Source of the DNA: Maribacter algarum (ex Lu et al. 2025) (nom. illeg.) | GTDB lineage: Bacteria > Bacteroidota > Bacteroidia > Flavobacteriales > Flavobacteriaceae | Length of the DNA: 64,000 nucleotides | Direction of reading: 5' to 3' | Assembly: GCA_947495915.1 (NCBI GenBank) | Contig: CANMAW010000005.1 | Location: 62,001-126,000 of the forward strand | Translations under genes and position numbers: made by a program | Notes under the pieces: model-generated | Databases searched by the model: none | The model's input: the letters and a program-made list of their open reading frames with translations, nothing else | Told to the model about the DNA's origin: nothing | Shown: positions 6,977 to 57,300 of the stretch, piece by piece | Layout of the letters: each line of letters starts with the position of its first letter | Numbering within the stretch: position 1 is the stretch's first letter

Positions 6977-7059
6977 AATCGGCATAAAATGAAAATGTCA
7001 ACATTTCTAAGTTTTTCGAGAGAGCAATATTGCAATACTTGTATAATGATACCCTAAGA

Positions 7060-14964: not shown

Positions 14965-15029
14965 AACTATTTTGAATTTTAAAGAAGCTTGGAAAGGCAA
15001 AATCCCTTCCAAGCACCACCTATTATCTT

Positions 15030-34498: not shown

Positions 34499-35224
34499 TT
34501 ATTCGGTAATAGCGTCCAAATCATGATAAGACACTATTCCTACTTGAGCCTTAATTGCCAACGCACCAATATACTGCTCTGCAGGTTTAAAGGAAAATAA
34601 AGCCCATTGAAACCTCTCATTGCTATCCCATTTAGTTTCTTGTAGTTCGGCCTTTTCATCAGAATCAAGCGACACTGAAAATTGATCTAGTGGAAATGAC
34701 AATCCGCTTCCCTCCGCTTTAATAAATGATTCCTTACGCGTCCAACATCTAAAGAAGGACTTTACGAGAGAAACCTTAGGTTGTTTTTCAAGACTTGTAA
34801 TTTCACAATCAGAGAAAAAATGTTGAGCCAATTCTAACGCATTAAAATCATCTTTAATGTATTCAATATCTACTCCTACTTCTTTCCCTTTAACAAAGGC
34901 AAATACCGCCATATCAGCGGAATGAGAAACATTAAACTTGATATCTGTTTCTGCTATATACGGCTTTCCATGAGCGGAGTACAAAAATTGAATGTCTTCG
35001 GGTTTTTGATTTAAATAGACTGACACCAGTTGTCTTAAAGTCCCTCGACTTATGATATAAGCTAAGCGATCTTTCTCAAATTTAAATCTGCCAGCACGTG
35101 CTTTCTCATCAACAGAAAGTATATCCAAATAATTAGGCATTTGTTCTTTATGCTTGTTAAATGAACAATACCACACCGCGGCATGATTGGGTTTTAAGTC
35201 AAGAACATCTGGTATATGTATCAA
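34499..35224 (-). CDS. 4'-phosphopantetheinyl transferase (Sfp type)
   Basis: A 241-residue enzyme that moves phosphopantetheine from CoA onto carrier-protein serines. Both motifs are present: VGVDIEYI and FFRCWTRKESFIKAEGSGL. The length and the two-lobe layout match Sfp-type enzymes, which activate peptide synthetases. It sits 4 bp downstream of the glycosyltransferase gene in the leftward NRPS operon, so it very likely primes the carrier domains encoded at 36592-40611, 46068-46310 and 46331-50455. Confidence 0.92.
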   Translation of the reverse strand: MIHIPDVLDLKPNHAAVWYCSFNKHKEQMPNYLDILSVDEKARAGRFKFEKDRLAYIISRGTLRQLVSVYLNQKPEDIQFLYSAHGKPYIAETDIKFNVSHSADMAVFAFVKGKEVGVDIEYIKDDFNALELAQHFFSDCEITSLEKQPKVSLVKSFFRCWTRKESFIKAEGSGLSFPLDQFSVSLDSDEKAELQETKWDSNERFQWALFSFKPAEQYIGALAIKAQVGIVSYHDLDAITE

Positions 35225-35228
35225 TATT

Positions 35229-36575
35229 TTAGATTTTAATTCCTTCGAAAAGAATTGGCGTCAAATCTTTATCCTTATACTTTGTGTAGGTACTGTGCAC
35301 TTTTACTAAAGTATCACTGCTGCTCTGATCGTTTAACATCTGAAGTACGTTTTTCCGAATTTGCTCAGTTGTATCCGTAATCATATTGCCCCGCTTTCCT
35401 AAACCATGGTATTCCATTTTTGCCGCATTTCCGTTTTGATCAGTATAACCTAAAGCGTATAATAGCATAGGTACTTTAAAGTGAATACATTCATTAATTG
35501 TGTTTATTCCGCAGGAAACAATAGCACAATCAGCTACTTCCAGTACATTTGGCTGTGACACCCAATTAAAAAGATGCACATTGGTAGCTTTGACATTAAA
35601 GGTTGTTACTTTCATCTTCGGACCTATGGAAACAATTAACACTACTTCGTTTACATCAGCCATTGCATCTATCACTTTTTGCATAAATGCAACATTGCCT
35701 TCCGCCAACGATCCAACCGAAAGATATACGAGTTGATGGTTTTGCGATTTCTTGTTTTCAAGTATTTCTGCCAAGCGATTATCAATTGTATCACCAACTA
35801 ATGCATGAATTCTTTTCTGAAATATCATCGGACCAATGTGCGAAATATTTGAAGCCCTTTTATGAGGAAATTCCAGTTCAGCCATCGTCATGGTTAAAAT
35901 AGGCAACCGTGTAAAGCTGTATAAAGGCGGTAATGTATTGACCAACATCCCCGCGGTATCAAAACCTAATTCTCTAGCAAATTTTTTAAACATCCATCTG
36001 CGATAGTTTTCAAAAGTCAACCGATTTAAAACTACCCTTGCATTAATTTTAGCTCTCATTTTCAACCAAGACCATGCTATTCCAATCTTAGAACCAGTAA
36101 ATCCTTTACCTGGAATTATTGATGTACGCACCGATGGACTATGAAAGCTTATGGTATCAGAAAACCATGTAGTGATTAATTTCACCGGAATCTTTAATTT
36201 AATTGCAACAAAAATAAATTCATGAATTTCAGTATCTACCAATATTAAATCGGGTTGCACAGCAGCTAATACCTTTTGATGCTCCTCTAGTTTTAAAATC
36301 TCTTTACCAGCAGAATAATGCGATTGTAAATGCGAAAAGTGAAACCTAAGTTTTTGAAACCAAGAAGCATTTAGCGGTCTTCGAGGATCTTGATAATCAA
36401 AAGTTATTTCTGGCACTTCGGCACATGAAAATCCGTTAGCCTCAATTCCTTTGGTGGTTTGGGGCTGGCACAAAAAAGTAATGGTATGCCCTTCTTTTTG
36501 TAATCGGGTAGCCATTTCAAAACTTGAATTTAGACGACCCACAAGTAAACCCGTCACTATTGCTATATGCGCCAT
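35229..36575 (-). CDS. GT1-type glycosyltransferase of the NRPS cluster
   Basis: A 448-residue protein with the GT-B fold of macrolide/UDP-glycosyltransferases. The N-terminal acceptor domain starts IAIVTGLLVGRLNSSFEMATRLQKEGH. The C-terminal donor domain has YLSVGSLAEGN and the signature region around WVSQPNVLEVADCAIVSCG followed by INECIHFKVPMLLYALGYTDQNGNA. It presumably adds a sugar to the peptide product. It is 16 bp after the NRPS stop and 4 bp before the PPTase start. No sugar-nucleotide biosynthesis genes are nearby, so it probably uses a common donor. Confidence 0.85.
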   Translation of the reverse strand: MAHIAIVTGLLVGRLNSSFEMATRLQKEGHTITFLCQPQTTKGIEANGFSCAEVPEITFDYQDPRRPLNASWFQKLRFHFSHLQSHYSAGKEILKLEEHQKVLAAVQPDLILVDTEIHEFIFVAIKLKIPVKLITTWFSDTISFHSPSVRTSIIPGKGFTGSKIGIAWSWLKMRAKINARVVLNRLTFENYRRWMFKKFARELGFDTAGMLVNTLPPLYSFTRLPILTMTMAELEFPHKRASNISHIGPMIFQKRIHALVGDTIDNRLAEILENKKSQNHQLVYLSVGSLAEGNVAFMQKVIDAMADVNEVVLIVSIGPKMKVTTFNVKATNVHLFNWVSQPNVLEVADCAIVSCGINTINECIHFKVPMLLYALGYTDQNGNAAKMEYHGLGKRGNMITDTTEQIRKNVLQMLNDQSSSDTLVKVHSTYTKYKDKDLTPILFEGIKI

Positions 36576-40631: not shown

Positions 40632-41861
40632 TTAAGACCAAAGCCCAAGTTGCACTGCCCATTCGCGAATTTGCATTTTTACAGCATAAAATACACCGAA
40701 TTCAAGATCAAAAATCCGCTCTATGCACCAATATAGTGATATGATTATCAATACGAGTGATGTGTAAACCAAAATCTTGTTATAAATTTTCGTCTTTCTT
40801 AATAGGAAAAGTATTGGAAATATCGCTGCTATTATAGCCACTTGGCCCAATTCAACTCCCACATTAAATCCTAGGAGTGATATTGTCAAAAAGTCATTAG
40901 TTAATCCCAAATCACCCAATACACTTGCAAATCCGAATCCATGGAACAACCCGAAAACAAATGCGATTACCCAATCACGGCCTTTAAAAATTGGTCGAAT
41001 ATTATGAAAGGCGGCCAGACCTATTGAAAATGCAATAATAGACTCTACTAATCTTGAGGGTAAATTAACAAGTTCAAGCGAAGCCAAAGTAAGAGTAATA
41101 GTGTGAGCAATAGTGAAAAATGTAATTACTCGAAGAATATAAAAGAAAGCTGGTTTGAATTCTAAAACAGGTTCCCAATTCGCAAGGTTATACCCTGTAG
41201 CATCAGATTTTCTTCTAACAACTGCCGGTAAAATCAATGCGACTAAAAATAAGATATGATCGAGTCCTATCCAAATATGCCACATACCCTGACGAACCAT
41301 TGCTACAAATCCTTTCCATACCGAAACATCAGTCAAAGACATGGTGTCAACCGTTCTTCCAGGTGCAAAGTCTAATGAAATATTCGCTTCTTCATTAATT
41401 ACACCAGCTTTCCAATTGTATTCGGTAATTAAAAACCCTCTATGAGTATCATCCTTTTCAAAAACCACATTATAGTTAACGGTTAGTTCATCAGGTATAT
41501 CATTAGTATTTTCTAAAACGAAGTAGACTTTTAAAAAATTCCCTAAATCAACAAATTGAATATCTTCTTTTTCAAGCAAAATATTGTGCTTGCCCAATGG
41601 AGATTCAAAAGACGTATTTCTCAATAGGTAGGCTTTTATTTCGTCTAAATATGGTTCAATATCTTTTAAAACAAAATCTTGCCCCAAATTAGTCCCAAAT
41701 ACGGTATTAATTTCGCGCGCATTAATTTCAAACCTACCTTCAATTCCTGATTTTTCATATACACGAAGAAAGATATAACTCTGATTTACTAAATGAGCAT
41801 CAGCAATATTTGGAAAAAGCAGTATTCCTAAAAGAAATAGCGCTGAAAGTAATTTTTTCAT
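40632..41861 (-). CDS. HupE/UreJ-type permease
   Basis: A protein of 409 residues from the ATG at 41861, giving a signal peptide (LFLLGILLFPNIADAH). An extracytoplasmic domain of about 180 residues follows, then six to seven membrane helices. Family motifs are MWHIWIGLDHILFL, FTIAHTITLTLA and FGLFHGFGFASVLGDLG, with His and Asp residues suited to divalent metal transport. HupE/UreJ proteins are linked to nickel or cobalt uptake; the long N-terminal domain is the HupE_2-type variant. It is the first gene of the leftward NRPS operon. Metal specificity cannot be read. Confidence 0.88.
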   Translation of the reverse strand: MKKLLSALFLLGILLFPNIADAHLVNQSYIFLRVYEKSGIEGRFEINAREINTVFGTNLGQDFVLKDIEPYLDEIKAYLLRNTSFESPLGKHNILLEKEDIQFVDLGNFLKVYFVLENTNDIPDELTVNYNVVFEKDDTHRGFLITEYNWKAGVINEEANISLDFAPGRTVDTMSLTDVSVWKGFVAMVRQGMWHIWIGLDHILFLVALILPAVVRRKSDATGYNLANWEPVLEFKPAFFYILRVITFFTIAHTITLTLASLELVNLPSRLVESIIAFSIGLAAFHNIRPIFKGRDWVIAFVFGLFHGFGFASVLGDLGLTNDFLTISLLGFNVGVELGQVAIIAAIFPILFLLRKTKIYNKILVYTSLVLIIISLYWCIERIFDLEFGVFYAVKMQIREWAVQLGLWS

Positions 41862-42180
41862 AGCAGTTTTATTTATTCTTAATCGGTAAATTACCATTTA
41901 TAAGAAGTACAATAAAAGAAAAAAGTTAAACACTTTTAAAATTTTACGTTAAACGGTGATTTTTTTACATTATAAACACAACCTCAACAAAACCAATACG
42001 TTAAACAAAACTCGCAACCAAAACATCTCAATTAGACATTCAAACACAATTATGGTTGCTAACTGACTTATATTACTGGTTGTTTATCGAAACTTGCATT
42101 GTTTTCTTGAAATTTCATACTTAAATTACTTACATTAAGTAAAAATTGCTGACTTGTTTAACCAAGTTTAAAAGAAAACA
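41862..42180. promoter_or_regulatory. Divergent promoter region of the NRPS cluster with repeated GTTAAAC sites
   Basis: A 319-bp AT-rich gap between the hupE-like (-) and cyclodeaminase (+) genes. GTTAAAC occurs at 41925-41931, 41948-41954 and 42000-42006, and as its inverse GTTTAAC at 42156-42162. The second and third are extended (TACGTTAAAC) and lie 52 bp apart. An 11-bp near-palindrome GGTAAATTACC is at 41885-41895. I see no exact TAnnTTTG element. The repeats are candidates for a shared operator. Confidence 0.35.
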
Positions 42181-43251
42181 ATGTTCCAAAAACAACAAAC
42201 ATCCATCGTTCTGTCAGGAATTGATGTTAGCCAAATTGTCGAGAAATTTGGACTAAATGAGCTGATGGACAACCTTATTAATCGATTGGAAAGTGCCATT
42301 AAAAACTTTGACAATTCAAAAATTGATATTCCGATCAGATCAGGGTTTAACTATCAAGCAACTAATCCTGGTTTAGTAGAATGGATGCCCATTCATAAAA
42401 AGGGTAAAGAGGTGGTGATAAAAGTTGTAGGTTATCACCCTCGCAATCCTGAAAAATTTAATTTACCAACGATATTATCCTCTATTTCAAGTTATGACAC
42501 CATCACAGGTCACTTGAACGGAATCGCAGATGGTGTTTTGCTTACTGCTTTACGAACAGGTGCTTCATCAGCTCTTGCGAGTAAATATCTAGCGAAACCA
42601 GGTAGCTCTGTTCTAGGCCTTATTGGTTGCGGAGCGCAATCAATAACTCAACTGCATGCCCTATCACGTATTTTTGATTTGAAAGAAGTATTTATTAATG
42701 ATATAGACAAAGATACAATCGCCACGTTTAAAGATCGAATTGCAATGCTCGATTTAGATATAGTAGTGCAAGAGACCTCGATCAAAACGATTATTGAGTC
42801 GTCTGACATTGTGTGTACTGAAACCTCAATTGATATAGGTACAGGCCCCCTTTTTAAAAATGTTGAAAGTAAAAGGCATTTACATATCAATGCTATCGGT
42901 TCTGATTTTCCTGGAAAAACCGAACTTCCTAAGGAGTTTTTGTTAAATAGTTTTGTGTGTCCTGACTTTTTAGAACAGGCAAAACTCGAAGGTGAATGCC
43001 AACAATTAAAAGATGAACAAATTGGCGCTGATTGGGTGCAAGTCATACAATCACCACAAGAATTTACAGAAATACCTTTTCAAAAATCTGTTTTTGATTC
43101 AACGGGATGGGCGCTTGAAGATCAAGTGGTGTTAGAGTTATTTTTAGAAAAGGCTAAAGAGTTTAAAATAGGGTTAGAAGTAGCTATTGAAAATGTTTCT
43201 GAAGACGCTAAAAACCCTTATCATTTTTTATTGAAAACAGTTCAGGCCTAA
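42181..43251 (+). CDS. Ornithine cyclodeaminase / mu-crystallin family enzyme
   Basis: A 356-residue NAD-binding enzyme. The N-terminal part has the family pattern (GFNYQATNPGLVEWMPIHKKGKEVVIKVVGYHP). DGVLLTALRTGASSALASKYLA precedes the Rossmann motif VLGLIGCGAQSITQLHAL. Family members convert L-ornithine to L-proline, lysine to pipecolate, or reduce cyclic imines. It opens the rightward operon whose next three genes resemble a prolyl-carrier-protein dehydrogenation pathway, so supplying proline is the simplest reading. An SbnB-like role is less likely because no SbnA homologue is present. Confidence 0.88.
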   Translation: MFQKQQTSIVLSGIDVSQIVEKFGLNELMDNLINRLESAIKNFDNSKIDIPIRSGFNYQATNPGLVEWMPIHKKGKEVVIKVVGYHPRNPEKFNLPTILSSISSYDTITGHLNGIADGVLLTALRTGASSALASKYLAKPGSSVLGLIGCGAQSITQLHALSRIFDLKEVFINDIDKDTIATFKDRIAMLDLDIVVQETSIKTIIESSDIVCTETSIDIGTGPLFKNVESKRHLHINAIGSDFPGKTELPKEFLLNSFVCPDFLEQAKLEGECQQLKDEQIGADWVQVIQSPQEFTEIPFQKSVFDSTGWALEDQVVLELFLEKAKEFKIGLEVAIENVSEDAKNPYHFLLKTVQA

Positions 43252-43338: not shown

Positions 43339-44490
43339 ATGAATTTATCGTGGACGTCAGAACAGATAGAATATAAAGAGGCAATTATTGCTTTTGCTCA
43401 AGAGCACCTCAATAATAACGTGGCGAGTCGCGATCAAAATTGTGAATTTTCTCGAGATGATTGGAAAAAGTGCGCGGCATTCGGAATTCAAGGTTTGGCT
43501 ACGCCAAAAGTATATGGAGGTTATAAACCGGAGGTTGATATACTAACCGCTACATTGGCAATGGAAGGCTTAGGGTACGGTTGTAAAGATAATGGACTAC
43601 CCTTTAGTTTAAATGCCCAAATGTGGACCGTACAATTACCCATTGCACAATTTGGTAATGAACAGCAGAAAACAAAATACCTCAACAAATTCACCTCTGG
43701 CGATTGGATTGGCTGTCACGGTTTAACCGAAGCTAATGCCGGTTCAGATATTTTCAGTATGGAAACATCTGCCAAAAAAGTGGATGGTGGCTACATTATA
43801 AACGGTAGTAAACGGCTTATAACATTAGGGCCGGTTGCTGATGTTGCTCTAATATTTTGTGTAACGAACGAGAAATTAGGCAAATGGGGCATTAGCGGCT
43901 TTATTATTGAAAAAGGTACTGAAGGGTTCACTCAAGGTGCCAACAAGGCTAAAATGGGGATGCGCACCGTACCTATTGGTGATTTAATCTTTGAAGATTG
44001 CTTCGTATCCGATGAAAATCGTTTGGGTGCTGAAGGTTCGGGTTGGAGTATTACTACAAGTTCTCTGGAATATGATCGAGGAGGAATTCTAGGTAGTCAG
44101 CTAGGGGCTATGGAAAGACAACTCGAAGAAAGTATTGCCTTTGTAAAAAAAAGAAATCAATTTGGCAAACCAGTAAGTGAATTTCAGTCTGTTTCAAATA
44201 GAATTGCAAATATGAAATTACGACTAGAAACCTCACGCTTATTACTTTATAAAGTCGCTTGGTTAAAAAGTATTGGAAAATCAGCAATGATGGAAGCCGC
44301 GTTGTTAAAGCTACAACTCAGTGAAAGCTTTATTGAATCAAGCTTAGATGCTATTCGATCACATGGTGGAAGTGGCTATTTAAGTGAAAATGAAATTGAA
44401 CGAGATTTAAGAGATGCGGTGGGTGGTGTAATCTACGCCGGAACCTCTGATATTCAAAGAAATATAATTGCCAACCTACTTGGCTTATAA
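43339..44490 (+). CDS. Acyl-CoA dehydrogenase-fold flavoenzyme, candidate prolyl-carrier-protein dehydrogenase
   Basis: 383 residues with the complete ACAD fold. GLTEANAGSDIFSM is the flavin/substrate signature, and the C-terminal part is RSHGGSGYLSENEIERDLRDAVGGVIYAGTSDIQR. The medium-chain-type catalytic Glu before GT is Ala367 here (YAGTS). The likely base is instead in the helix at L243-E-Y-D246-R, as in isovaleryl-CoA dehydrogenases and in PltE/RedW-type prolyl-S-carrier dehydrogenases. It lies between the cyclodeaminase and adenylation genes, 9 bp before the latter. Role inferred: oxidation of a carrier-bound proline (or similar amino acid) to a pyrrole or pyrroline. Confidence 0.85.
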   Translation: MNLSWTSEQIEYKEAIIAFAQEHLNNNVASRDQNCEFSRDDWKKCAAFGIQGLATPKVYGGYKPEVDILTATLAMEGLGYGCKDNGLPFSLNAQMWTVQLPIAQFGNEQQKTKYLNKFTSGDWIGCHGLTEANAGSDIFSMETSAKKVDGGYIINGSKRLITLGPVADVALIFCVTNEKLGKWGISGFIIEKGTEGFTQGANKAKMGMRTVPIGDLIFEDCFVSDENRLGAEGSGWSITTSSLEYDRGGILGSQLGAMERQLEESIAFVKKRNQFGKPVSEFQSVSNRIANMKLRLETSRLLLYKVAWLKSIGKSAMMEAALLKLQLSESFIESSLDAIRSHGGSGYLSENEIERDLRDAVGGVIYAGTSDIQRNIIANLLGL

Positions 44491-44499
44491 ATTACTATT

Positions 44500-46065
44500 A
44501 TGATAACAACGCTCCCAAATTGTATAGATAATGCTGTCCAACTACACCCGAAAAACGTTGCTTTTCGTTGTGGTGAACAACAACTCACCTATGAGCAGTT
44601 ACAATTAAAAACAAATCAATTGGCTCAGCATCTTGTTCATTCTGGAGTCAAGAAAGGTGATCGCGTTGGTATTTATATGAATCGCTGTTTAGAAACAGCA
44701 ATAGCCATTTATGGAATTTTAAAATCAGGAGCGGCCTATGTACCTATAGATCCTATTTCTCCAAAAAACAGAACCCTGTTCTTACTCGAAAACTGTGGTA
44801 TTGAAATTTTGATTACGGTTGAAAAACAAAAAAAACGCATACACAAACTATTAGAAACACCTACTTCTATAAAACAAATAATTGGTGTCTCAACTCAGTT
44901 TAATGTGAAGCATTGTTTATGGGAAGATTTATATAACACCTCGCTTGAAAGTTACCAACCCATACAACTTGATCAAAATGATCTAGCTTATATTATGTAT
45001 ACGTCTGGCTCAACAGGAGCGCCAAAGGGAATTATGCATACGCATAAAAGCGGTTTGGCTTATGCGAAGCTTTCCGCTGATTTATACGGTTTAACGGTAA
45101 CTGATAGGGTCGCGAATCACGCTCCATTACATTTCGATATTTCAACATTTGGCTATTTTTCGGCTCCGTTTGCTTCTGCGACAACGGTTATTATTCCTGA
45201 TGCTCATACCAACCTACCAGCTAGTTTAGCTGCTTTAATTGCAGCGGAAAAAATATCAGTTTGGTATTCTGTTCCATTGGCTTTGAGTCAACTAGTTTTA
45301 TCTAAAGTTTTAGATAATTATGATTTTAGTGCCTTGAGATGGGTGCTTTTTGGTGGAGAAAATTTTCCATTGAAATACCTCAACCTACTCATGCAGAAAT
45401 GGCCCCATGCAAGATATTCTAATGTATATGGCCCTGCAGAAGTGAATCAATGTACCTATTACAATTTTGACACATCAGTAAATATTGAAAAATATATTCC
45501 TATTGGTAAAGTCTGGAACTATACTGATTATAAAATCATTGACGAAAATGATCAAGAAATTTATGACGATACAGCAGGCCAATTGGTAATTCATTCAACA
45601 ACAATGATGAAAGGTTATTGGGGTAATGAAGTTTTAACCAAACAATCTATTTATACCGTTCAGACATCAGATAGTTCAAAGAAATCATTTTATCGAACTG
45701 GTGATTTAGTCAAAAGAGATCAATTAGGTCAGTTGATCTTTTTAGGACGAAAAGATAGACAAGTTAAGGTTCGTGGTTATCGAATTGAACTTGATGAAGT
45801 TGAAGCTGTATTAAACAATCATCCGGCAATAAAAGAAGCTACTGTATGTAAATTACAAAACAAAGATAATATCGCTACCATCCACGCTGCGGTTATCTTC
45901 GTGATTGGTGCAGAAATACCCGTGAATACCTTAATTACGTATTGTAGGTCTAACCTACCCTCTTACGCCGTACCAGAACGTTTAGACATTTTAGAAAGTT
46001 TCCCTAGAACTGGTTCTGGAAAAATTGACTTAACCCGAATTAAAGAAACTCTAATCGCCCTATAA
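44500..46065 (+). CDS. Free-standing amino-acid adenylation enzyme (PltF/AnaC type candidate)
   Basis: A 521-residue AMP-forming ligase without carrier or condensation domain. Core motifs: LKSGAAYVPIDP, YTSGSTGAPKG, NHAPLHFDISTFGYF, NVYGPAEVNQC, YRTGDL, GRKDRQVKVRGYRIELDEVE and the Lys in GSGKIDLTRI. By motif alignment the pocket reads D-I-F-S-L-G-V-Q-C-K. It is followed after 2 bp by a stand-alone carrier protein and preceded by the dehydrogenase, the same gene set as in pyrrole-2-carboxylate and anatoxin starter pathways, where the ligase loads L-proline. I cannot confirm proline from the pocket alone. Confidence 0.9.
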   Translation: MITTLPNCIDNAVQLHPKNVAFRCGEQQLTYEQLQLKTNQLAQHLVHSGVKKGDRVGIYMNRCLETAIAIYGILKSGAAYVPIDPISPKNRTLFLLENCGIEILITVEKQKKRIHKLLETPTSIKQIIGVSTQFNVKHCLWEDLYNTSLESYQPIQLDQNDLAYIMYTSGSTGAPKGIMHTHKSGLAYAKLSADLYGLTVTDRVANHAPLHFDISTFGYFSAPFASATTVIIPDAHTNLPASLAALIAAEKISVWYSVPLALSQLVLSKVLDNYDFSALRWVLFGGENFPLKYLNLLMQKWPHARYSNVYGPAEVNQCTYYNFDTSVNIEKYIPIGKVWNYTDYKIIDENDQEIYDDTAGQLVIHSTTMMKGYWGNEVLTKQSIYTVQTSDSSKKSFYRTGDLVKRDQLGQLIFLGRKDRQVKVRGYRIELDEVEAVLNNHPAIKEATVCKLQNKDNIATIHAAVIFVIGAEIPVNTLITYCRSNLPSYAVPERLDILESFPRTGSGKIDLTRIKETLIAL

Positions 46066-46067
46066 TT

Positions 46068-46310
46068 ATGAATGAAATTTTACTACAGTATATCTCTGAG
46101 CATATATTGAATAATGAACTTGAAGAACCTTTAGAAGCGCAAGATGACCTTTTGGGTGATGGAATTCTTGATTCTTTAGGCATGATGAAACTTATATTAT
46201 TTATTGAAACTAAGTATGATACCAAAGTACCACCGCAAGATATGATTATTGAAAATTTCATGACGGTGCAGCACATCAGTGACTATTTGGTTAAAACCAA
46301 GGTACAGTAA
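46068..46310 (+). CDS. Free-standing peptidyl/acyl carrier protein
   Basis: 80 residues with a four-helix carrier-protein pattern and the phosphopantetheine site Ser36 in GILDSLGMM. It starts 2 bp after the adenylation gene stop and 20 bp before the NRPS start. It should carry the adenylated amino acid during oxidation by the upstream flavoenzyme and deliver it to the condensation domain of the next gene. Confidence 0.93.
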   Translation: MNEILLQYISEHILNNELEEPLEAQDDLLGDGILDSLGMMKLILFIETKYDTKVPPQDMIIENFMTVQHISDYLVKTKVQ

Positions 46311-46330: not shown

Positions 46331-49300
46331 ATGGATCTAAAGTACAACGCACTTACCGAAAGTCAACTGTCCATTTGGACAGGTCAGCAAATGAATGCTG
46401 ATGCGCCTTTATACAATATGGCGCATGCATTTCATATTGATGGCGCTTTGAATTCAGATACATTTTCGCAAGCTTTTGCACTGCTAATAGAAAAAGTTGA
46501 AGTACTGCGCACGGTTATAATTCAAGAGGAAGATATTCCTAAACAGCGTATTTTTCATAAGGAAAAGCATTTGCTTCCAGTGCTTGATTTTTCACTTAAA
46601 ACAGTAAAAGAGATTGATGATTGGTTGCAAGAACGCAGTCAAGTCAATTTTGATCTTTCCAAACAATTGTATGATTCTGTTTTATTGCGATTAGGTGAAA
46701 AAGAACATGTTTGGTTTCTGAATGTTCATCATATTATTACTGACGCGACAGCATCAACCATTCTATTTAATATTCAGGCTGAACTTTATCAACAAATTCT
46801 AGAAAACAATCTAGATAACATGATTGAAGTGCCAAATTTTCAAGAGTTTTCTTCTTTTCAAAAACTTCAGAAAAATAATAACCAGAGTCAACTGATTAAG
46901 AAACATTGGAATGATAAGGTACAATCTTTAACCAATCCAATACAACTCTATGGGCGTTCGCATCAAACAAATAATTCATCGTCAGAAAGAATAAGCACAA
47001 ACTTAGGTATAGAACGATCAAACCGAATTCGAACTTTAGCTGCTTCGCCTTCAATACGCTGTTGGACAAAAGATTTGACGCTTTTTAATCTTTTTACAAC
47101 CGCTCTATTTTGCTATTTACATCGCGTAAGTGGTCAAGAGCAATTTGCGATTGGGGCTCCATCACATAATAGAACTACAAAAAAATTCAAACGTACACCG
47201 GGGTTATTTATAGAGTTTTTCCCACTACTTGCCAACATTAACCCTGATGATACATTTTTATCTGTGTTTGAAAAGGTAAAAATTGAAACAAACGATTACC
47301 TAAAAAATGCGCAAGCTGGCATGTCTACTCCTGAAATGAGTAGAAGTTTCAATATTGTACTGAATTATATCAACGCCTCTTTTTCTGATTTTAACGGTAT
47401 GCCGATAAAGTCAAAATGGATTCATCCTCAGCATTGTGATCCTGGCCATCAATTGCGTTGTCATGTTTACGATATGGATGATTCTGGACAAATAGAAGTT
47501 CATTTTGATCTTAACAATTCCATTTTTGATGATAAACTACAGCAAGATGTACCGCGACACTTTCTAAAAATAATGGATGGTATGCTCGACACTATGGAGC
47601 AATCTATATATGAACCCAGCATGGTTGCCCCACCTGTTATCGAGGTTATTCAACAACCATCTCATTTTATATCCCTAATTGAGCAGTTTGAACAACAGGT
47701 AATTAAAACACCAAATTCAATCGCCTTACGAGAAGATGATAAAACGTTTACATACCAAGAGCTTCAACAAAAAGTCAATCAACTCGCAAACGTATTAAGC
47801 AAAAATGGTTTGGCAACCCAAAACAGAGTGATTGTTCATTTATATAGATCGGCAGAATATGTGTTAACTGTATTGGCCATTTTAAAAACAGGAGCAACTT
47901 TTATTCCAATTTCGGCTGACCAACCGCCTAGTAGGGTTACTTACATTGCAAAAGACGCCAATTGTCAATTAATAATCACCGATACGCACCTTGCTGATAA
48001 CCTCGCTTCTGAATCAGTTTCCGTAATTAGAATTGATCAAGAAGAAGAAAACGTTACAAAAGAATCTAGGTTATTTGAAACCGTTGCAGTGCATGAAAAG
48101 GATATCGCTTACCTAATTTACACCTCAGGTTCTACGGGAAATCCTAAAGGAGTGCTTATTTCAAATACCGCAGTTGGAAACTATTTTAATTGGGCAAGGT
48201 CTTTTTATCCGAATGAAGAACAGTTTATTTTTCCGCTTTGTACAGCTATAGGATTTGACTTAACTATTACTTCAACTTTTTTACCGTTAATTACTGGTGG
48301 AGAATTGATTATTTATAAGGAAGCAGTTAATGGACCTGATATCTCTTTACTAGAAGTTGTTGCCCAAAACAAGGTAAATGCAATCAAACTAACACCTTCA
48401 CATTTGGCTTTGATCAAAGATCAGAACATGGCTGACTCAAATATTAAAACCATGATTGTAGGTGGTGAAGATTTTAAAACTAGTCTCGCAGAAACCATAC
48501 AAACATCCTTTGGTAAAAACCTTCGCATTTTTAATGAATACGGACCTACTGAAGCTACCATCGGTTGTATCGTAGCCACATATGAAAGGGAACTACATCG
48601 TGAAATATCCGTACCAATAGGCAAAGCAATTACAGGTATGTCGGCGCTAATTTTAGATAAGGCATATAATAGCGTTCCAGACGGCGTTACAGGCGAGTTA
48701 TTTTTAGGTGGTTTAGGGCTCGCTGAAGGTTACACTGGAATAGCAGAAATGACTTCAGAAAAGTTTATCAAAAATCCTGTTAATCCAAAGCAAACAATAT
48801 ACAAAACAGGTGATTTAGTCCGAAAAAATGAAAATGGCAATATGATCTATTTAGGTCGTATTGATGAGCAAGTAAAAGTAAGAGGCTATCGTTTAGAGTT
48901 GCCTGAAATTGAGGTAAACTTAGCGCAACATGATGGTATCACCAATGCTGCAGTTGTCGTTATTGAAAATGAACCAGTGGTACCCGAAGAAAAAGTAACA
49001 AACTGTTCTGAATGTGGATTGCCTTCGAATTACCCAAAGATAGACTTTGACGACAATAATGTTTGTCAAATTTGTGTCGCTTTCAAAGGATATAAAGAAG
49101 AAGCCGAAAAGTATTTCAAGACTGAAGACGAGTTGAAAGAAATTCTTAGTTCTAAAAGAGGCAAAAGTCCTGTCTATGATTGTATTTCACTATTGAGTGG
49201 TGGTAAAGATAGCACCTATATTTTAGCCCAACTCGTAAAAATGGGGTTACGCGTACTCGCCTTCACCTTAGATAACGGCTATATTTCGGAGCAAGCCAAA

Positions 49301-50455
49301 GACAATATTAACCGAATTGTAACAAAACTACACGTAGATCATATCTACGGAAAAACCGAACACATGAATGCCATTTTCGTAGATAGTCTGCATAGGCATC
49401 AAAACGTGTGCAATGGTTGTTTTAAAACGATTTACACACTAAGTACACAAATAGCATTAAGCAAACAAATACCCTTCGTAGTCACTGGTTTGTCAAGAGG
49501 TCAGTTTTTTGAAACACGATTAACCGAAGAATTGTTTTGGGATACCGACATTGACACCGATAGTATTGACGCTACCATTCTAGAAGCCAGAAAACTTTAC
49601 CATCAAGAAAATGACGCGGTAAAACAACTATTAGATGTATCGATGTTTGATTATGAAGACACCTTTAATAAAGTTCAGTTTATTGACTTTTATAGATATA
49701 GCGATGTGCGATTAGAAGACATGCTAACCTTTTTAAAAGAAAATGTAGACTGGGTACGGCCGACAGACACTGGTCGGTCAACTAACTGTTTGATTAATCA
49801 ACTAGGCATTCATGTGCATAAGAAAGAAAAAGGGTACAGTAATTACTCCTTTCCCTATAGTTGGGATGTTCGTATGGGGCACAAAACAAGAACGGAAACC
49901 TTAGAAGAAATTAATGAAGTAATTAATGAGGATGAGGTAAAACGAATTGCAAATGAAATTGGCTTCGTAATTCCAGACGGAAGTTCTTTAAACCAAAAGA
50001 ATTTGGTCGCGTATTATACTGGAAAAAAGACCCTTTCTGCGGATTTATCAAAACACTTAGAAAAAACACTACCGGCATATATGCTTCCGTCTTTCTATAA
50101 ATACATGACGGAGTTACCTTTAACAACAAATGGTAAGGTTGATAAAAAAGCTTTAAAGCAATTAAATACTGATCAGCTTGAAACCGATACCCCATTTGTA
50201 GCTCCAAATGGTGGAATTGAAATATTATTGGCAAGTATATGGCAAGAAGTATTGCGTATCGATACGATTAGTGTTTATGATAATTTCATCTCCTTAGGAG
50301 GGCATTCATTGGCCGCTATTCGCGTTACAGCTCGTGTTAATGACGAGCTAGAAGTAAAATTTCCGTTAAATAAAATATTTGAATTTCCCACTATTGCAAC
50401 ATATGCCGAGTATATCGAAAAAACATTAACCGCATTGTTAAATGAACAAAACTAA
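46331..50455 (+). CDS. Nonribosomal peptide synthetase C-A-T with a PP-loop ATPase inserted in the A domain
   Basis: 1374 residues. C domain about 5-440 with HHIITDA (His133/134, Asp138). A domain starts near 450: YTSGSTGNPKG, GFDLTITSTF, FNEYGPTEATIG, KTGDLVRK, and A8 GRIDEQVKVRGYR at 842-854. Then about 885-1217 is a foreign domain, after which A9 (LPAYMLP, 1247-1253) and A10 (NGKVDKKAL, 1267-1275) resume. T domain: Ser1326 in GGHSL. There is no TE. Pocket residues read D-L-T-K-I-G-E-I-G-K, very close to the published Asn code (DLTKLGEVGK). It probably accepts the starter from the free carrier, adds Asn or a modified Asn, and passes the chain to the C-A-T-TE enzyme encoded at 36592-40611. 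Confidence 0.95.
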   Translation: MDLKYNALTESQLSIWTGQQMNADAPLYNMAHAFHIDGALNSDTFSQAFALLIEKVEVLRTVIIQEEDIPKQRIFHKEKHLLPVLDFSLKTVKEIDDWLQERSQVNFDLSKQLYDSVLLRLGEKEHVWFLNVHHIITDATASTILFNIQAELYQQILENNLDNMIEVPNFQEFSSFQKLQKNNNQSQLIKKHWNDKVQSLTNPIQLYGRSHQTNNSSSERISTNLGIERSNRIRTLAASPSIRCWTKDLTLFNLFTTALFCYLHRVSGQEQFAIGAPSHNRTTKKFKRTPGLFIEFFPLLANINPDDTFLSVFEKVKIETNDYLKNAQAGMSTPEMSRSFNIVLNYINASFSDFNGMPIKSKWIHPQHCDPGHQLRCHVYDMDDSGQIEVHFDLNNSIFDDKLQQDVPRHFLKIMDGMLDTMEQSIYEPSMVAPPVIEVIQQPSHFISLIEQFEQQVIKTPNSIALREDDKTFTYQELQQKVNQLANVLSKNGLATQNRVIVHLYRSAEYVLTVLAILKTGATFIPISADQPPSRVTYIAKDANCQLIITDTHLADNLASESVSVIRIDQEEENVTKESRLFETVAVHEKDIAYLIYTSGSTGNPKGVLISNTAVGNYFNWARSFYPNEEQFIFPLCTAIGFDLTITSTFLPLITGGELIIYKEAVNGPDISLLEVVAQNKVNAIKLTPSHLALIKDQNMADSNIKTMIVGGEDFKTSLAETIQTSFGKNLRIFNEYGPTEATIGCIVATYERELHREISVPIGKAITGMSALILDKAYNSVPDGVTGELFLGGLGLAEGYTGIAEMTSEKFIKNPVNPKQTIYKTGDLVRKNENGNMIYLGRIDEQVKVRGYRLELPEIEVNLAQHDGITNAAVVVIENEPVVPEEKVTNCSECGLPSNYPKIDFDDNNVCQICVAFKGYKEEAEKYFKTEDELKEILSSKRGKSPVYDCISLLSGGKDSTYILAQLVKMGLRVLAFTLDNGYISEQAKDNINRIVTKLHVDHIYGKTEHMNAIFVDSLHRHQNVCNGCFKTIYTLSTQIALSKQIPFVVTGLSRGQFFETRLTEELFWDTDIDTDSIDATILEARKLYHQENDAVKQLLDVSMFDYEDTFNKVQFIDFYRYSDVRLEDMLTFLKENVDWVRPTDTGRSTNCLINQLGIHVHKKEKGYSNYSFPYSWDVRMGHKTRTETLEEINEVINEDEVKRIANEIGFVIPDGSSLNQKNLVAYYTGKKTLSADLSKHLEKTLPAYMLPSFYKYMTELPLTTNGKVDKKALKQLNTDQLETDTPFVAPNGGIEILLASIWQEVLRIDTISVYDNFISLGGHSLAAIRVTARVNDELEVKFPLNKIFEFPTIATYAEYIEKTLTALLNEQN
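48983..49981 (+). other. Inserted alpha-ANH / N-acetyl-sugar amidotransferase-like PP-loop domain
   Basis: Residues about 885-1217 of the NRPS at 46331-50455. It begins with a zinc-ribbon-like set (C892-x2-C895 and C912-x2-C915, with KIDFDDNNVC between). The PP-loop LLSGGKDSTYIL follows (SGGKDS at 956-961), then LRVLAFTLDNGY, a C1027-N-G-C1030 motif and FVVTGLSRGQFFETRL. This order matches WbpG/WbuX-type amidotransferases, which adenylate an amide or acyl oxygen and turn it into an amidine. Related alpha-ANH enzymes (closthioamide, 6-thioguanine pathways) install sulfur. Both the PP-loop and Cys residues are intact, so the insert is probably active. Confidence 0.85.
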
Positions 50456-50485: not shown

Positions 50486-50953
50486 ATGAAAGCGAAATAT
50501 TCAGAAGGCTTAAAGCCATTAATATTTAAACATATAGTATTAATTGTAGGTTTATGTTATATGCTTGCACCCATTCAAAATCAATTATTGAGAGGGTTAC
50601 ATGCAGTTTCGCATCAATTTGAAATGCCTTCAACTATTCTATCTCATCAATCAAACGGCACCATTACTCATTCGGTACATGCTCAGCATAACCATGAAAT
50701 GGGCCATTCCGATCATGATCATTCGTTTATTGATTTAATCGACACTGTTTTTGAAGCTTCGGGCGCTGATCAAAGTTCTGATAAAAATGAATTAAAAATA
50801 TCGTCCTTAAAAAAACATCTAATTACTAACAATTATAATACTTGGTTCGCAAATTCAGAACTTCAAATAAAAATTTTCGATTCTTTTATACCATCTATTT
50901 CAGATGGCTACCCCAATAAAATATACTCCCCTCCTATTCTTAGTATTTGCTAG
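50486..50953 (+). CDS. Small His-rich membrane-anchored or exported protein
   Basis: 155 residues. One N-terminal hydrophobic segment (IVLIVGLCYMLAPI, about residues 18-31). A His-rich stretch follows (about 64-80: HAQHNHEMGHSDHDHS). The C-terminal part is ordinary. Such His/Asp clusters bind Zn, Ni, Co or Cu. It is 30 bp after the NRPS stop and before the TonB receptor, so it is probably the periplasmic part of a metal uptake set together with the receptor and the HupE-like permease. Family not recognised. Confidence 0.7.
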   Translation: MKAKYSEGLKPLIFKHIVLIVGLCYMLAPIQNQLLRGLHAVSHQFEMPSTILSHQSNGTITHSVHAQHNHEMGHSDHDHSFIDLIDTVFEASGADQSSDKNELKISSLKKHLITNNYNTWFANSELQIKIFDSFIPSISDGYPNKIYSPPILSIC

Positions 50954-51076
50954 TCTTAAATTGTTTTTATACAAAAAGCTCATCTACCTCCTTGATTAAA
51001 ATCCTTTTCTCAAATCGATAAGGGTGTAAATTCATGCGAAAATGGTTGTATGGGCAAGGTTACCAAATTTAAAATT

Positions 51077-53314
51077 ATGAAAAAATATATATTATTTTTT
51101 ATCATCTTAAACACCGCATTTACCATCTCTGCTCACGAATTCAGCGGAACTATTGTAGATCAAAACAACGCGCCTTTAGACGGTGTTGGCGTTTTTAACA
51201 AAACCACTAAAAATTACACCTATTCAAATGTCTCAGGATACTTTGAATTAGACGATATCTCGGTTGGCGATTTAATTGTTTTCAACTATTTAGGTTTTAA
51301 AACTCAAGAGATCACTATAGATAACAGCCAGTTAGATTCCAATATTAAAATTACAATGATCGAAGCAGCTGTTTCTTTAGATCAAGTAACATTGGTTTCA
51401 AACGTAAATGCACTTAGTCAATTTGTAAACGTTGATGTCAAAGCGAATCCTGTGAAATCATCCCAAGAAATACTTAGAAAAATACCTGGATTAATCATCG
51501 GTCAACATGCCGGAGGTGGGAAAGCAGAGCAAATATTTTTAAGAGGATTCGATATCGATCATGGCACAGATATCTCAATTAACGTTGATGGTTTACCAGT
51601 AAACATGGTATCGCATGCACACGGACAAGGGTATGCAGACATGCACTTTATTATTCCAGAAACTATTGATAACATAGACTTTGGCAAAGGTGCATACTAC
51701 GCCAACAAAGGTAATTTTAATACTGCTGGTTATGTTGATCTAAAAACCAAGAAAAAACTTTCGAACAGTCAAGTCTCGCTAGAAGCAGGCATTTTCAATA
51801 CCATACGAACGGTAGGAATGTTTAAAGTGGCAGAAGGCGAAAAAAGCAATGCTTACTTAGCATCAGAACTTGTACTTACCGATGGTGCTTTTGATTCTCC
51901 TCAGAACTTTAACCGACTTAATTTAATGGGACGGTATAACTTTAACAATCAAGAAGATCAAGACCTAAGTATTACCTTATCCCATTTTCAAAGTAAATGG
52001 GATGCTTCGGGTCAAATTCCGCAACGAGCCGTTGATCAAGGACTAATCGGTCGCTTTGGGGCTATCGATGATACAGAAGGTGGTAACACAAGCAGATCTA
52101 ATTTTCTTGTAAATCATATTAAGCAATTAGATGAACATTCAAGCATAACTTCTAAAGCCTTTATTTCTAAATACGATTTTGAGTTATTTTCTAACTTCAC
52201 TTTCTTTTTAGATGATCCTACCAATACTAACGGAGATCAAATTCGCCAAAAAGAAAATAGAACAATCATAGGTGCAGAAACAGTTTACAACCAATCATTT
52301 CACATCGGCGATCATGATTCTCAATTAAACTATCAAGCTGGTTTCGGATTTCGTTATGATGATGTCAATGATGTTCAACTTTCTCGGACTAAAAATCGTC
52401 AAGAGCTTTTAGAACGGTTGGCTTTTGGAAACATAGATGAACTTAACGGTTTTGGTTATATTAATCTTTCTTACAAGAAAAATAAATGGACTATAAACCC
52501 GGGGTTACGATTAGATTACTTTAAGTTTGACTATGTAAACCTTTTAACGGAAACCTATGATAGTCAAAGTGAGAACAAGGTTTTTGTTGGGCCAAAACTG
52601 AACGCTATATATGCGGCTTCCGATAAGCTTCAACTCTTTGCAAAAACAGGTATAGGTTACCATTCTAATGATACTCGTGTTGTAGTGGCAAATAACGGTA
52701 AAGAAATCTTACCAGCTGCGTACTCAGCAGATTTAGGTACCATTTTTAAGCCAAGTAATAAACTAGTAGTAAATGCTGGATTATGGAGTCTATTTCTTGA
52801 TCAAGAGTTTGTTTATGTTGGTGATGCCGCGATTGTAGAGCCTAGTGGTAAATCAAGAAGAGTTGGTGCTGATTTGGGTTTCAGATATCAACTTACCGAT
52901 TGGTTATATACAAATGCTGATGTTAATTATACCCTTGCCAGAAGCATTGATGAACCAGAAGGTCAAGATTTCATTCCTTTAGCACCTGATTTCACTTCTT
53001 CAGGAGGTCTTAGTATAACAGATATTGGAAATTTATCTGGAGGGTTAAGTTATCGTTACATTAAAAATAGACCTGCCAATGAAGACAATTCAATTGTCGC
53101 AGAAGGCTATTTTATTACCGATTTAAATTTAAGTTATGCGTACAAAAATTGGAACTTTGGCTTTATAATTGAAAACTTGTTTGATTCTGAATGGAATGAA
53201 ACACAGTTTGCCACTGAAAGTAGACTAATTAGTGAAACACAATCAGTTGAAGAAATTCACTTTACACCAGGTACACCTTTTTATCTTCGAGGTAAAATCA
53301 CGGTAACCTTTTAA
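51077..53314 (+). CDS. TonB-dependent outer-membrane receptor with carboxypeptidase-like N-domain
   Basis: A protein of 745 residues from the ATG at 51077 (MKKYILFFIILNTAFTISAHEF, a good signal peptide). Residues 23-105 form a CarboxypepD_reg-like domain (SGTIVDQNNAPLDGVGVF). A plug domain follows (SSQEILRKIPGLIIGQHAGGG; FLRGFDIDHGTDISINVDG with HAHGQGYADMHF). The rest is a 22-strand barrel ending FYLRGKITVTF. The HAHGQGYADMHF His residues are typical of a receptor group that I associate with metal or metallophore uptake. It is the last gene of the rightward NRPS operon and is likely to import the metal-loaded product or a metal complex. Confidence 0.88.
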   Translation: MKKYILFFIILNTAFTISAHEFSGTIVDQNNAPLDGVGVFNKTTKNYTYSNVSGYFELDDISVGDLIVFNYLGFKTQEITIDNSQLDSNIKITMIEAAVSLDQVTLVSNVNALSQFVNVDVKANPVKSSQEILRKIPGLIIGQHAGGGKAEQIFLRGFDIDHGTDISINVDGLPVNMVSHAHGQGYADMHFIIPETIDNIDFGKGAYYANKGNFNTAGYVDLKTKKKLSNSQVSLEAGIFNTIRTVGMFKVAEGEKSNAYLASELVLTDGAFDSPQNFNRLNLMGRYNFNNQEDQDLSITLSHFQSKWDASGQIPQRAVDQGLIGRFGAIDDTEGGNTSRSNFLVNHIKQLDEHSSITSKAFISKYDFELFSNFTFFLDDPTNTNGDQIRQKENRTIIGAETVYNQSFHIGDHDSQLNYQAGFGFRYDDVNDVQLSRTKNRQELLERLAFGNIDELNGFGYINLSYKKNKWTINPGLRLDYFKFDYVNLLTETYDSQSENKVFVGPKLNAIYAASDKLQLFAKTGIGYHSNDTRVVVANNGKEILPAAYSADLGTIFKPSNKLVVNAGLWSLFLDQEFVYVGDAAIVEPSGKSRRVGADLGFRYQLTDWLYTNADVNYTLARSIDEPEGQDFIPLAPDFTSSGGLSITDIGNLSGGLSYRYIKNRPANEDNSIVAEGYFITDLNLSYAYKNWNFGFIIENLFDSEWNETQFATESRLISETQSVEEIHFTPGTPFYLRGKITVTF

Positions 53315-54317: not shown

Positions 54318-57300
54318 TTAATTTCTCACCCAAAGTTTAATTAAGGTCGTTTCTCCTTGATTTAATGCCACTCTCACGAAATACAATCCGTCTCTAAGTG
54401 TTGCTGTAGGCAACTCAAAAATGCCATTATTCTCGATATCTGAGGCAATATAGCCTTCAATATAACGACCTCCAACATCGTGTAAAGTAATATTAAGAAC
54501 AGTTAAATCAACTGGCTTATTTATAATCAAAATTCTTGCAACACCACCATCAGCAGGGTTTGGAGGATTACTCTCAAGAATAACATTCATTTTACCAGCG
54601 GGATCTTCTTCAACCGTTACAGTAATTGTCGCAGAACTGGTAAGTCCGCCTTCATCGGTTACCGTTAATTGTACCGTAAATACACCTGGCACCGCATATA
54701 TTTTCTGAGGATCTGCTTCAGTAGAAGTTGTACCATCACCAAAATCCCATAGATAACTAATTACTCCATTATCATCGGTAGAATTACTACCTGTAAAATT
54801 AACTAACAAAGATGCGGGGCCTGATAGCGGGTCTGCTTCAGCCACTGCCGTTGGTGCACCATTGATACCGCCTTCAGGTGCTACCGTTATGGTCGCTTCA
54901 TCAAAACTAACTTCTAATTCATCATCAGTTATTGTTAATCTAAAAACATATACACCTTCAATTAAACCACTAGCCGCTAAATCAGCTGTGTCTGCACCAG
55001 CTAATGTGGCAGTGTTAGGACCGCTAATTTGAGTCCATTCATAGGTTACCTCTCCTCCATCAGAATCACTTCCTGAACCATTTAAAACTACGCTATTATC
55101 AGGTATAATAATAGTTTGATCAGGACCAGCATCTACATCAGGAGCACGTGTTTCAAAAACACCAATCCCTGATATTTTAGGAAATTCAGTAACTGCAGTT
55201 AAAGTAATCGTTAACATACCATCATTAACCGTAATACTTTGATAACGCTCAACCACTGCCGTTGCACTACCGCCTGCTTGTTCAACAATATCATAGTCAT
55301 CAACCTGTACTTGTCCATTTTCAATAGAGATATCAAATACTCTAGACCCTACTCCACCTGACTGACTACCTACACCATAAAATAATTCTGCAAAATGAAG
55401 ATCTATATTAAAGACTCCATTATCTACAGGAATTTCATAGACCAAAGTTCCTGAGGTACTAAATCTCTCCGTTTGATATAACTCATCATTCTCTGTGTTT
55501 GCAATAGGAATAGCATCTTCAAAGGTAGTTCCACCAACGAAATAGTTGTCTGCAGTCCACTGCTCTGTCATAAAATCAAAGGCAGGACCACCAGAGTTAA
55601 TTAATAAGCTAGAAGGTTGACTTGCTATTGTTATGGTAACTTGGTCAGATGCCATATCACCTTCATCATCGGTCGCCGTTAATTCAAAAACGTAGTTTCC
55701 TTCTATCATGTCACTAACCGTAGGGTCAGTTACAGTATCGTCACTAATAGTTGCCAAATTCGGACCGCTTATTTGTACCCAAGAATACGAAACAATTGCG
55801 CCTCCATCAGGATCTGTAGCAGAACCGTCTAAAGTTAAACTGTTATTCGGAAATGTAATAGATCGATCGTCACCAGCTGAAACAATTGGTGCGTTATTAT
55901 TTTCACTAAATTCTACAACTTCAATACCCGATATTTTAGGAAATTCTACTACTCCAGTTAATGTTATAGTTAACAATCCATCAGTTACGGTTACCTGCGT
56001 AAAATTCTCTACAATTGCCGTTGCCGGTGCTCCTGATTCTGCGATTATGTCATAATTAGTCAAAGTACCTTGACCATTTTCAATGTCAACATTGAAAATT
56101 CTTGACCCTTCACCACCAGCTGAACCTGCTCCTGGTACTCCATAATAAATTTCAGCAAAATGTAAGTTAATATTATAATCTCCATTCGAAACTGGAATTT
56201 CATACGTCAAGTTTCCAGTAGAAAATCTTTCTGTTTGATACAACTGATCATTAGAAGTATTCGCAATATCTATTACATTTTCCTCAATATCACCTCCATT
56301 AAAATATTGATCTGCAGACCAGGTAAGTGAGTTAAAGTTAAAGGTTGGCCCTCCTGCATTAATTCTAATAGAAGATAATTGCTCAGCTACTGTAATTATA
56401 ACTTCATCAAAAGCTGAATCAAGCTCATCATCAGTTGCTGTAAGTCTAAAAACATAAACCCCTACCACCAAGTTACTAAGTTCTAAAGTTGCTGTAGTTT
56501 CTCCACTTAAAGTCGCCGTATTCGGTCCACTTATTTGCGTCCACTGATATTGCGTAATTAAACCGCCATCTGGGTCACTAGCAGAACCATTTAAAGTTGC
56601 TGTGTCAGGTAAAATATTTTGATCTGTACCTGCGTCTACAATTGGCTCATCATCTTCAGTAGGAACCGTTTGGTTCTCATATATTCTAGGGAAATTTCTA
56701 ATTTGCCCACCAACGAACCAACCATTAGATACAACATCTAAATCACCATCGTTGTCTAAATCTGTAACACGGGCTCCATCATGATGCTCTTGGTTCGGAA
56801 TACCCGAATTCAAAACACGCTTGGTAAATGTACCATCAACACATAAATTGTTTTCAAATGCAAGAAGTCTGTAGTCACCAATCCATTCTCCAACTACGAT
56901 GTCAGTATCACCATCAAAATCAATATCAGTAGCAAAAACACTTAAGCTACCGTTTACATCAGTATCAATCACATTTCGAACCCATGGTTGCGTCGGATCT
57001 GCGGGAGCAGCAAACCATGACAGCTCTCCGGCGTTGGGATCAGAAGTAAATGCACTTAATTGACCAACTACAGCATCTAAATCTCCATCTCTATCAAAAT
57101 CTGCAAGTTGCGCTCTATCTGGTGTTGTAGCATAGGTTATACCCGTATTGAATGTAGTCCATCCACCTCCAGTACTTAAATCATTTCTTAACCAGTTAGT
57201 ACCTTGAAATAAATCTAAGTCATTATCTTGATCAATATCTCCTACTTGAATATCTTCCCCTGTTGAATCAGGACTTAAAGTTACTAAAGACCACATTCCT

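Follow-up and report, generated by a model that had tools for sequence, protein, structure and literature searches.

The window analysed here, a 64,000-nucleotide stretch of Maribacter algarum DNA (contig CANMAW010000005.1, positions 62,001 to 126,000), encodes a nonribosomal peptide synthetase (NRPS), NRPS1, in which about 330 residues are inserted between motifs A8 and A9/A10 of the adenylation (A) domain. The insert is very probably an AMDH-type domain (asparagine amide dehydratase/aminomutase) acting on asparagine, of the kind described in the asparagine A-T modules (T, carrier domain) of CysH in cystobactamid and AlbIV in albicidin biosynthesis (PMC7966384, PMC8949500, PMC12283262; here and below, papers are cited from excerpts or abstracts). 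These two synthetases overturn the statement in the initial annotation that no characterized NRPS carries such an insert. What is new is the presence of an AMDH-kind insert in a module with its own condensation (C) domain, inside a conserved gene cluster.

An in-frame and highly conserved insert

The PP-loop domain lies within an NRPS reading frame longer than 1330 residues in all 57 loci identified by a genome_contigs scan (L074 and L081 are clipped by a contig start), and the insertion point is the same in all 57 and, by published description, in CysH and AlbIV (PMC7966384, PMC8949500, PMC12283262). In a set of 98 genomes, partly shared with the 57-locus set, the insert was matched in 19 including the window's own (E≤0.001); in 14 of these, from six genera, it lies inside an open frame of 1374-1417 residues, and in the remaining five it occupies free frames of 380-418 residues. 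Recurrence of the in-frame fusion in 57/57 loci and 14/98 genomes rules out the sequencing or fusion error that had been considered as a source of two joined genes. A Fisher value (14/0/2/82), which takes no account of kinship, was left out of consideration. Loci with the insert include Maribacter, Arenibacter, Zobellia, Euzebyella, Algibacter, Gelidibacter, Lewinella and Algoriphagus, as well as one Acidobacteria and one Gemmatimonadetes metagenome-assembled genome, the spread into other phyla having been surveyed only by scans of the genome_contigs type. Its distribution is patchy, since among 395 evenly drawn genomes of the phylum only two, one of them the window's own, have it (E≤1e-30). 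A search for viral relatives returned none.

Over 58 sequences the insert is the most conserved of four regions compared, with a mean pairwise identity of 73% relative to 62% for T, 51% for the A core and 38% for C. The SGGKDS motif and all eight insert cysteines are kept in 58/58, which together with the predicted fold bears out the earlier assignment to the PP-loop/alpha-ANH enzymes. The HHxxxD motif of the C domain and Ser1326 of the T domain are unchanged in 14/14. Read at positions that we take to be numbered against PheA, the A-domain code of NRPS1 is DL[TS]KIGE[VI]GK in 58/58 sequences. The code corresponds to asparagine/cyanoalanine, DLTKIGEVGK being described as compatible with cyanoalanine too (PMC12283262).

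Comparison with CysH and AlbIV

The window insert agrees with the published AMDH features in position, size, motif and code: CysH and AlbIV share with it a PP-loop insert of about 330-342 residues bearing SGGKD, placed in an asparagine-activating A domain before T. AlbIV is described with a 342-residue alpha-ANH insertion in its A domain (PMC12283262) and with the SGGKD motif and asparagine preference (PMC8949500), and the AMDH domains of CysH and AlbIV are 69% identical to each other (PMC7966384). The AMDH reading is well supported, by these published features rather than by a measured alignment. In vitro, CysH converts asparagine to a -18 Da product, beta-cyanoalanine, only with the AMDH domain present; its deletion abolishes the isoasparagine and cyanoalanine linkers, and isoasparagine arises by aminomutation in vivo (PMC7966384). 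By likeness to this domain, the insert most likely acts on the amino acid tethered to its own module, as first suggested. Further AMDH homologues are reported by Groß et al. to lie all within asparagine A domains of clusters without a known product, and in the excerpts cited these authors leave the mechanism open (PMC7966384).

The systems also differ. CysH and AlbIV are stand-alone A-T modules, CysH supplying its assembly line through the shuttle CysB, whereas NRPS1 has its own C domain. In contrast to the CysH/AlbIV systems, the Pfam-scanned genes in the window cluster showed neither a hydroxylase nor a methyltransferase. Separately, a Streptomyces plasmid (NZ_CP108680.1; L105, 14932-17112) encodes a PP-loop domain that shares 37% identity and the cysteine set with the insert. 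It is apparently N-terminal in a condensation-domain protein and not within an A domain, and has asnB and a gene for a tyrosine 2,3-aminomutase as near neighbours.

Proposed mechanism and iron-sulfur cluster

A mechanism can be proposed in which the asparagine chemistry is taken over from the described homologues. The A domain would activate L-Asn and load it on the T domain of NRPS1, and the PP-loop domain would bind ATP via SGGKDS and activate the oxygen of the side-chain amide, presumably by O-adenylation in the manner of QueC. Loss of AMP, with net removal of water, would give beta-cyanoalanine, and such a domain can yield isoasparagine when conditions differ. The nitrile is the expected product here because a hydroxylase gene was not seen in the window cluster. 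QueC is a PP-loop enzyme of nitrile synthesis, and enzymes of its type form nitriles via an adenylated amide; QueC and the nitrile synthetase ArtA (known from its PDB title) resemble in this respect the activity proposed for the insert, but their substrates are not carrier-bound asparagine and the sequence match is weak.

Cys1027 and Cys1030 of the CNGC motif together with Cys1153 probably ligate a [4Fe-4S] cluster that would be labile to oxygen and would keep one iron site open close to the nucleotide. These residues match the CxxC...C pattern reported for the [4Fe-4S] enzyme LarE (PMC9283937), and the combination of SGGxDS with CxxC and a distant third cysteine that marks the [4Fe-4S] PP-loop sulfurtransferases TtuA, NcsA and LarE is present in 58/58 inserts. 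Profile alignment places CNGC over CYNC of mmLarE-[4Fe-4S] (8cnz, E 1.3e-7), with Cys1153 outside the aligned part. By analogy, this cysteine set could explain the colour of purified CysH, which is described as dark brown, with no CxxCxxxC found and the cofactor left open by the authors (PMC7966384).

Alternative functions of the insert

The initial annotation had offered an amidine or a thioamide as product, which is probably wrong given that CysH yields the nitrile (-18 Da) or isoasparagine; the thioamide is kept as a rival on account of the cysteine set. An amidine former would act as WbpG/WbuX do, with ammonia attacking the activated amide. The insert matches the fold of these N-acetyl sugar amidotransferases (TIGR03573; PDB 8wex) over nearly its whole length, and they have SGGxDS and, in most, the N-terminal CxxC pairs, which we take to be Zn-ribbon-like. 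The score of the insert against TIGR03573 is nevertheless 127 bits, under the curated cut-off of 203.2. The WbuX/WbpG proteins are free-standing and their genes lie beside or near hisH in 5/6 plasmid loci fetched, whereas no glutaminase, in line with the earlier observation, was found in the 43 ORFs (open reading frames) scanned out of 48 in the window with at least 100 residues. A tree places AMDH rows on one side and WbuX-like rows on the other with support of 97/99; the comparison included six of the 11 plasmid hits H4-H14, H5, H6, H7, H9 and H13 being left out, and of the nine WbuX-like rows six carry the annotation N-acetyl sugar amidotransferase, L088 and L089 pass TIGR03573, and L015 was labelled by the analyst only. 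Finally, the excerpts on characterized inserts in asparagine A domains do not report amidine formation (PMC7966384). An amidine-forming function is very unlikely. Eight of the nine free-standing WbuX-like proteins lack the CNGC/Cys1153 set; the exception, L132, has it and falls among the AMDH rows at the end of a very long branch. This row weakens the idea that the set is AMDH-specific, though not the iron-sulfur proposal.

The same set of cysteines is a point at which a thioamide former competes with an amide dehydratase. In this alternative a PP-loop domain with a [4Fe-4S]/[4Fe-5S] cluster would put sulfur into the activated side chain of asparagine; the resulting thioasparagine would be a soft ligand for copper. 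CxxC...C with SGGKDS recalls LarE and TtuA, proposed to transfer cluster-bound sulfide (PMC9283937). The gene cluster appears copper-linked, and the fold matches of the insert include YcfA, which presumably acts in 6-thioguanine synthesis. Against these points, a domain of the same kind in CysH gives the -18 Da product (PMC7966384), and no cysteine desulfurase was found in the 43 window ORFs, small sulfur carriers being able to escape since ORFs below 100 residues were unscanned save one; on balance sulfur insertion is improbable. That the insert is non-catalytic and retained as a linker or docking part is scarcely credible: the CysH AMDH domain does influence O-methylation by CysQ, perhaps through contact (PMC7966384), but a PP-loop and eight cysteines invariant in 58/58, in the most conserved of the four regions, argue for catalysis.

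The gene cluster and its proposed product

NRPS1 lies among genes (Table 1) that recur around the insert in relatives, including a free-standing carrier protein absent from the initial annotation. By hidden Markov model, its counterpart is present in 53/58 loci, including 39/39 that have a stand-alone A gene; at ORF level that A gene occurs in 38/57 relatives' loci. The code of the stand-alone A domain is, we assume, close to proline codes. The PigA-like dehydrogenase occurs in 19/57 loci and the ornithine cyclodeaminase in 16/57. Because these three genes occur only in part of the loci, the starter varies among clusters. HupE is found in 49/57 loci, and a receptor and an inner-membrane transporter are thus encoded beside the synthetase. 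In the 35 NRPS2 ORFs longer than 900 residues from the 57 loci (in the others NRPS2 is cut, split or missing within the stretch), code positions one to nine read DSAL[IMV]AEVW in 35/35; DSALIAEVWK is named in a passage on histidine domains (PMC12283262).

Table 1. Features of NRPS1 and its gene cluster in the window
Feature	Coordinates	Strand	Remarks
4'-Phosphopantetheinyl transferase	34499..35224	-	
UDP-glycosyltransferase-like protein	35229..36575	-	In 9/57 relatives' loci within fetched stretch
NRPS2, C-A(His code)-T-thioesterase (TE), 1339 residues	36592..40611	-	Code DSAWIAEVWK
HupE/UreJ-2 permease	40632..41897	-	N-terminal copper-domain-like fold; His35 right after signal peptide (cleavage by eye)
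Ornithine cyclodeaminase/mu-crystallin family enzyme	42181..43251	+	PF02423; possible proline supply
Acyl-CoA-dehydrogenase-type enzyme, PigA/L-prolyl-PCP dehydrogenase relative	43339..44490	+	NF053553 382 bits, NF045652 339 bits, both under cut-off
Stand-alone A domain	44500..46065	+	Code type DIFxLGVQCK
Free-standing carrier protein, 80 residues (243-base ORF)	46068..46310	+	Pfam PP-binding 23.1 bits, cut-off 20.8
NRPS1, C-A-[AMDH-type PP-loop insert]-A(C-terminal)-T, 1374 residues	46331..50455	+	Without TE
A-domain core of NRPS1	47687..48901	+	Residues 453-857
Probable AMDH-type PP-loop insert	48974..49996	+	Residues ~882-1222 (ends approximate)
CxxC...CxxC at insert N-terminus	49004..49075	+	Cys892/895/912/915; mostly common to WbuX proteins
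PP-loop SGGKDS	49196..49213	+	Residues 956-961; invariant in 58/58
CNGC (Cys1027, Cys1030)	49409..49420	+	Proposed [4Fe-4S] ligands; 58/58
Cys1153 (STNCLIN)	49787..49789	+	Proposed third cluster ligand; 58/58
Small His-rich protein	50486..50953	+	Membrane-anchored by eye; 43/57 loci
TonB-dependent receptor	51050..53314	+	53/57 loci

From this gene content we predict that the cluster may make a copper metallophore of the form starter-Asn*-His, Asn* being the modified asparagine. The C domain of NRPS1 would link Asn* to a starter bound to the free-standing carrier protein; in the window this starter probably derives from proline and is perhaps a pyrrole. Histidine would be added by NRPS2, whose TE would release the peptide. 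In its full form the proposal is of marine NRPS-made copper metallophores starter-X-His, resembling the X-X-His arrangement of amino-terminal Cu- and Ni-binding (ATCUN) motifs, where X is AMDH-modified asparagine or, in two relatives, serine; they would be re-imported through the TonB-dependent receptor and passed to a HupE/UreJ-2 permease whose mature N-terminal histidine binds copper, with the AMDH domain working through a [4Fe-4S] cluster that explains brown CysH. We advance this composite only tentatively, as rather unlikely to hold in every part. Methanobactin and chalkophomycin are copper-binding peptides of the kind proposed here; methanobactin is ribosomal, whereas the window cluster is an NRPS system, and abstracts describe its import via TonB receptors. 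No starter-Asn*-His peptide turned up among known chalkophores in the abstracts and excerpts that the literature search returned, and no description of the cluster was found, journals behind subscription being mostly out of reach. Neither a riboswitch or other Rfam match at gathering scores in the window nor, in a simple count, a convincing shared operator motif upstream of HupE was found.

A doubtful but genuine possibility is that the cluster makes an antibiotic instead, or else an iron or nickel siderophore. Iron is the usual substrate of TonB receptors, and HupE/UreJ proteins are known chiefly for nickel transport. Several observations weigh against copper: in the PDB the receptor matches FecA, BtuB and a SusC homologue (E≤0.01), and two genomes have distant relatives of the receptor close to urease, one (47%) about 7 kb away in G086 (L125) and one, a gene broken into several pieces (L126, 5625-7724), about 4 kb away in G026, while G094 has both a receptor relative and urease on separate contigs. 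The characterized AMDH clusters, moreover, make antibiotics (PMC7966384). Against a non-copper product stand a Pfam scan of cluster genes that showed none for catechols or hydroxamates, the histidine code in all 35 NRPS2 ORFs examined, and the resemblance of the HupE N-terminal domain to a Cu-bound crystal structure. Nickel in place of copper is partly countered by urease scoring over cut-off in only 1/16 genomes with a long HupE and NiFe hydrogenase in 3/16; nickel superoxide dismutase was matched in 0/98 genomes, which is uninformative, as controls also gave none.

Elsewhere in the window, adjacent genes for an MbnH-type di-haem protein and an MbnP-type copper-binding protein (13918-15815, minus strand) lie about 20 kb from the NRPS2 end; they were unseen in the stretches fetched around relatives' clusters, so their membership was set aside. 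A 2324-residue protein (54318-61292, minus strand) contains malectin, PKD, CBM6 and GSDH domains, and its C-terminus weakly matches a sorting tail; similar ORFs adjoin the cluster in several relatives.

Variant clusters

A Roseovarius plasmid (Rhodobacterales, L104) encodes a single protein of 2697 residues, by eye C-A[AMDH]-T-C-A(His-like code)-T-TE, adjoining genes for HupE, a carrier protein, a dehydrogenase and an A domain; this in-line arrangement supports the order Asn* then His. In L115 (5627-8752) and L116 (11793-14918), NRPS1 is a 1041-residue C-A-T protein without the insert and with the code DVWHFSLVDK, a serine code (PMC3795760), in surroundings much like those of the window (HupE, NRPS2, dehydrogenase, A gene, His-rich gene and receptor). 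Such loci would represent a natural exchange of the middle residue, a Ser-coded C-A-T replacing the AMDH synthetase. Against a uniform product speak the longer NRPS2 of L116 (1538 residues) and L079 (1565 residues), both C-A-T-C, and a gene after NRPS2 in L079 that carries C-T-TE without an A domain; some clusters may therefore make a larger product. In L080 and L082-L084 the fetched stretch contains no HupE, and an additional ORF of 253-256 residues lies between the A gene and NRPS1; in L082 (Algoriphagus, 6335-7096) this ORF is a PhyH dioxygenase that could conceivably play a part like that of CysJ. In L117 (10826-11155) a 109-residue ORF that shares 61% identity with the T domain of NRPS1 is next to a His-rich gene and a receptor gene, with no synthetase in the stretch and no AMDH match in the genome; it looks like a relic of a lost cluster.

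Implications

If the cofactor assignment is true, AMDH is an iron-sulfur PP-loop enzyme serving dehydration rather than sulfur insertion, and the proposed mechanism, if right, explains nitrile formation by an ATP-dependent domain on an assembly line. The loci described here form one large coherent set of AMDH clusters with a predicted product (starter-Asn*-His), a predicted role (copper uptake) and a predicted cofactor (the CxxC...C iron-sulfur cluster), and would, if the copper proposal is right, add a family of peptide copper metallophores for marine Bacteroidota.

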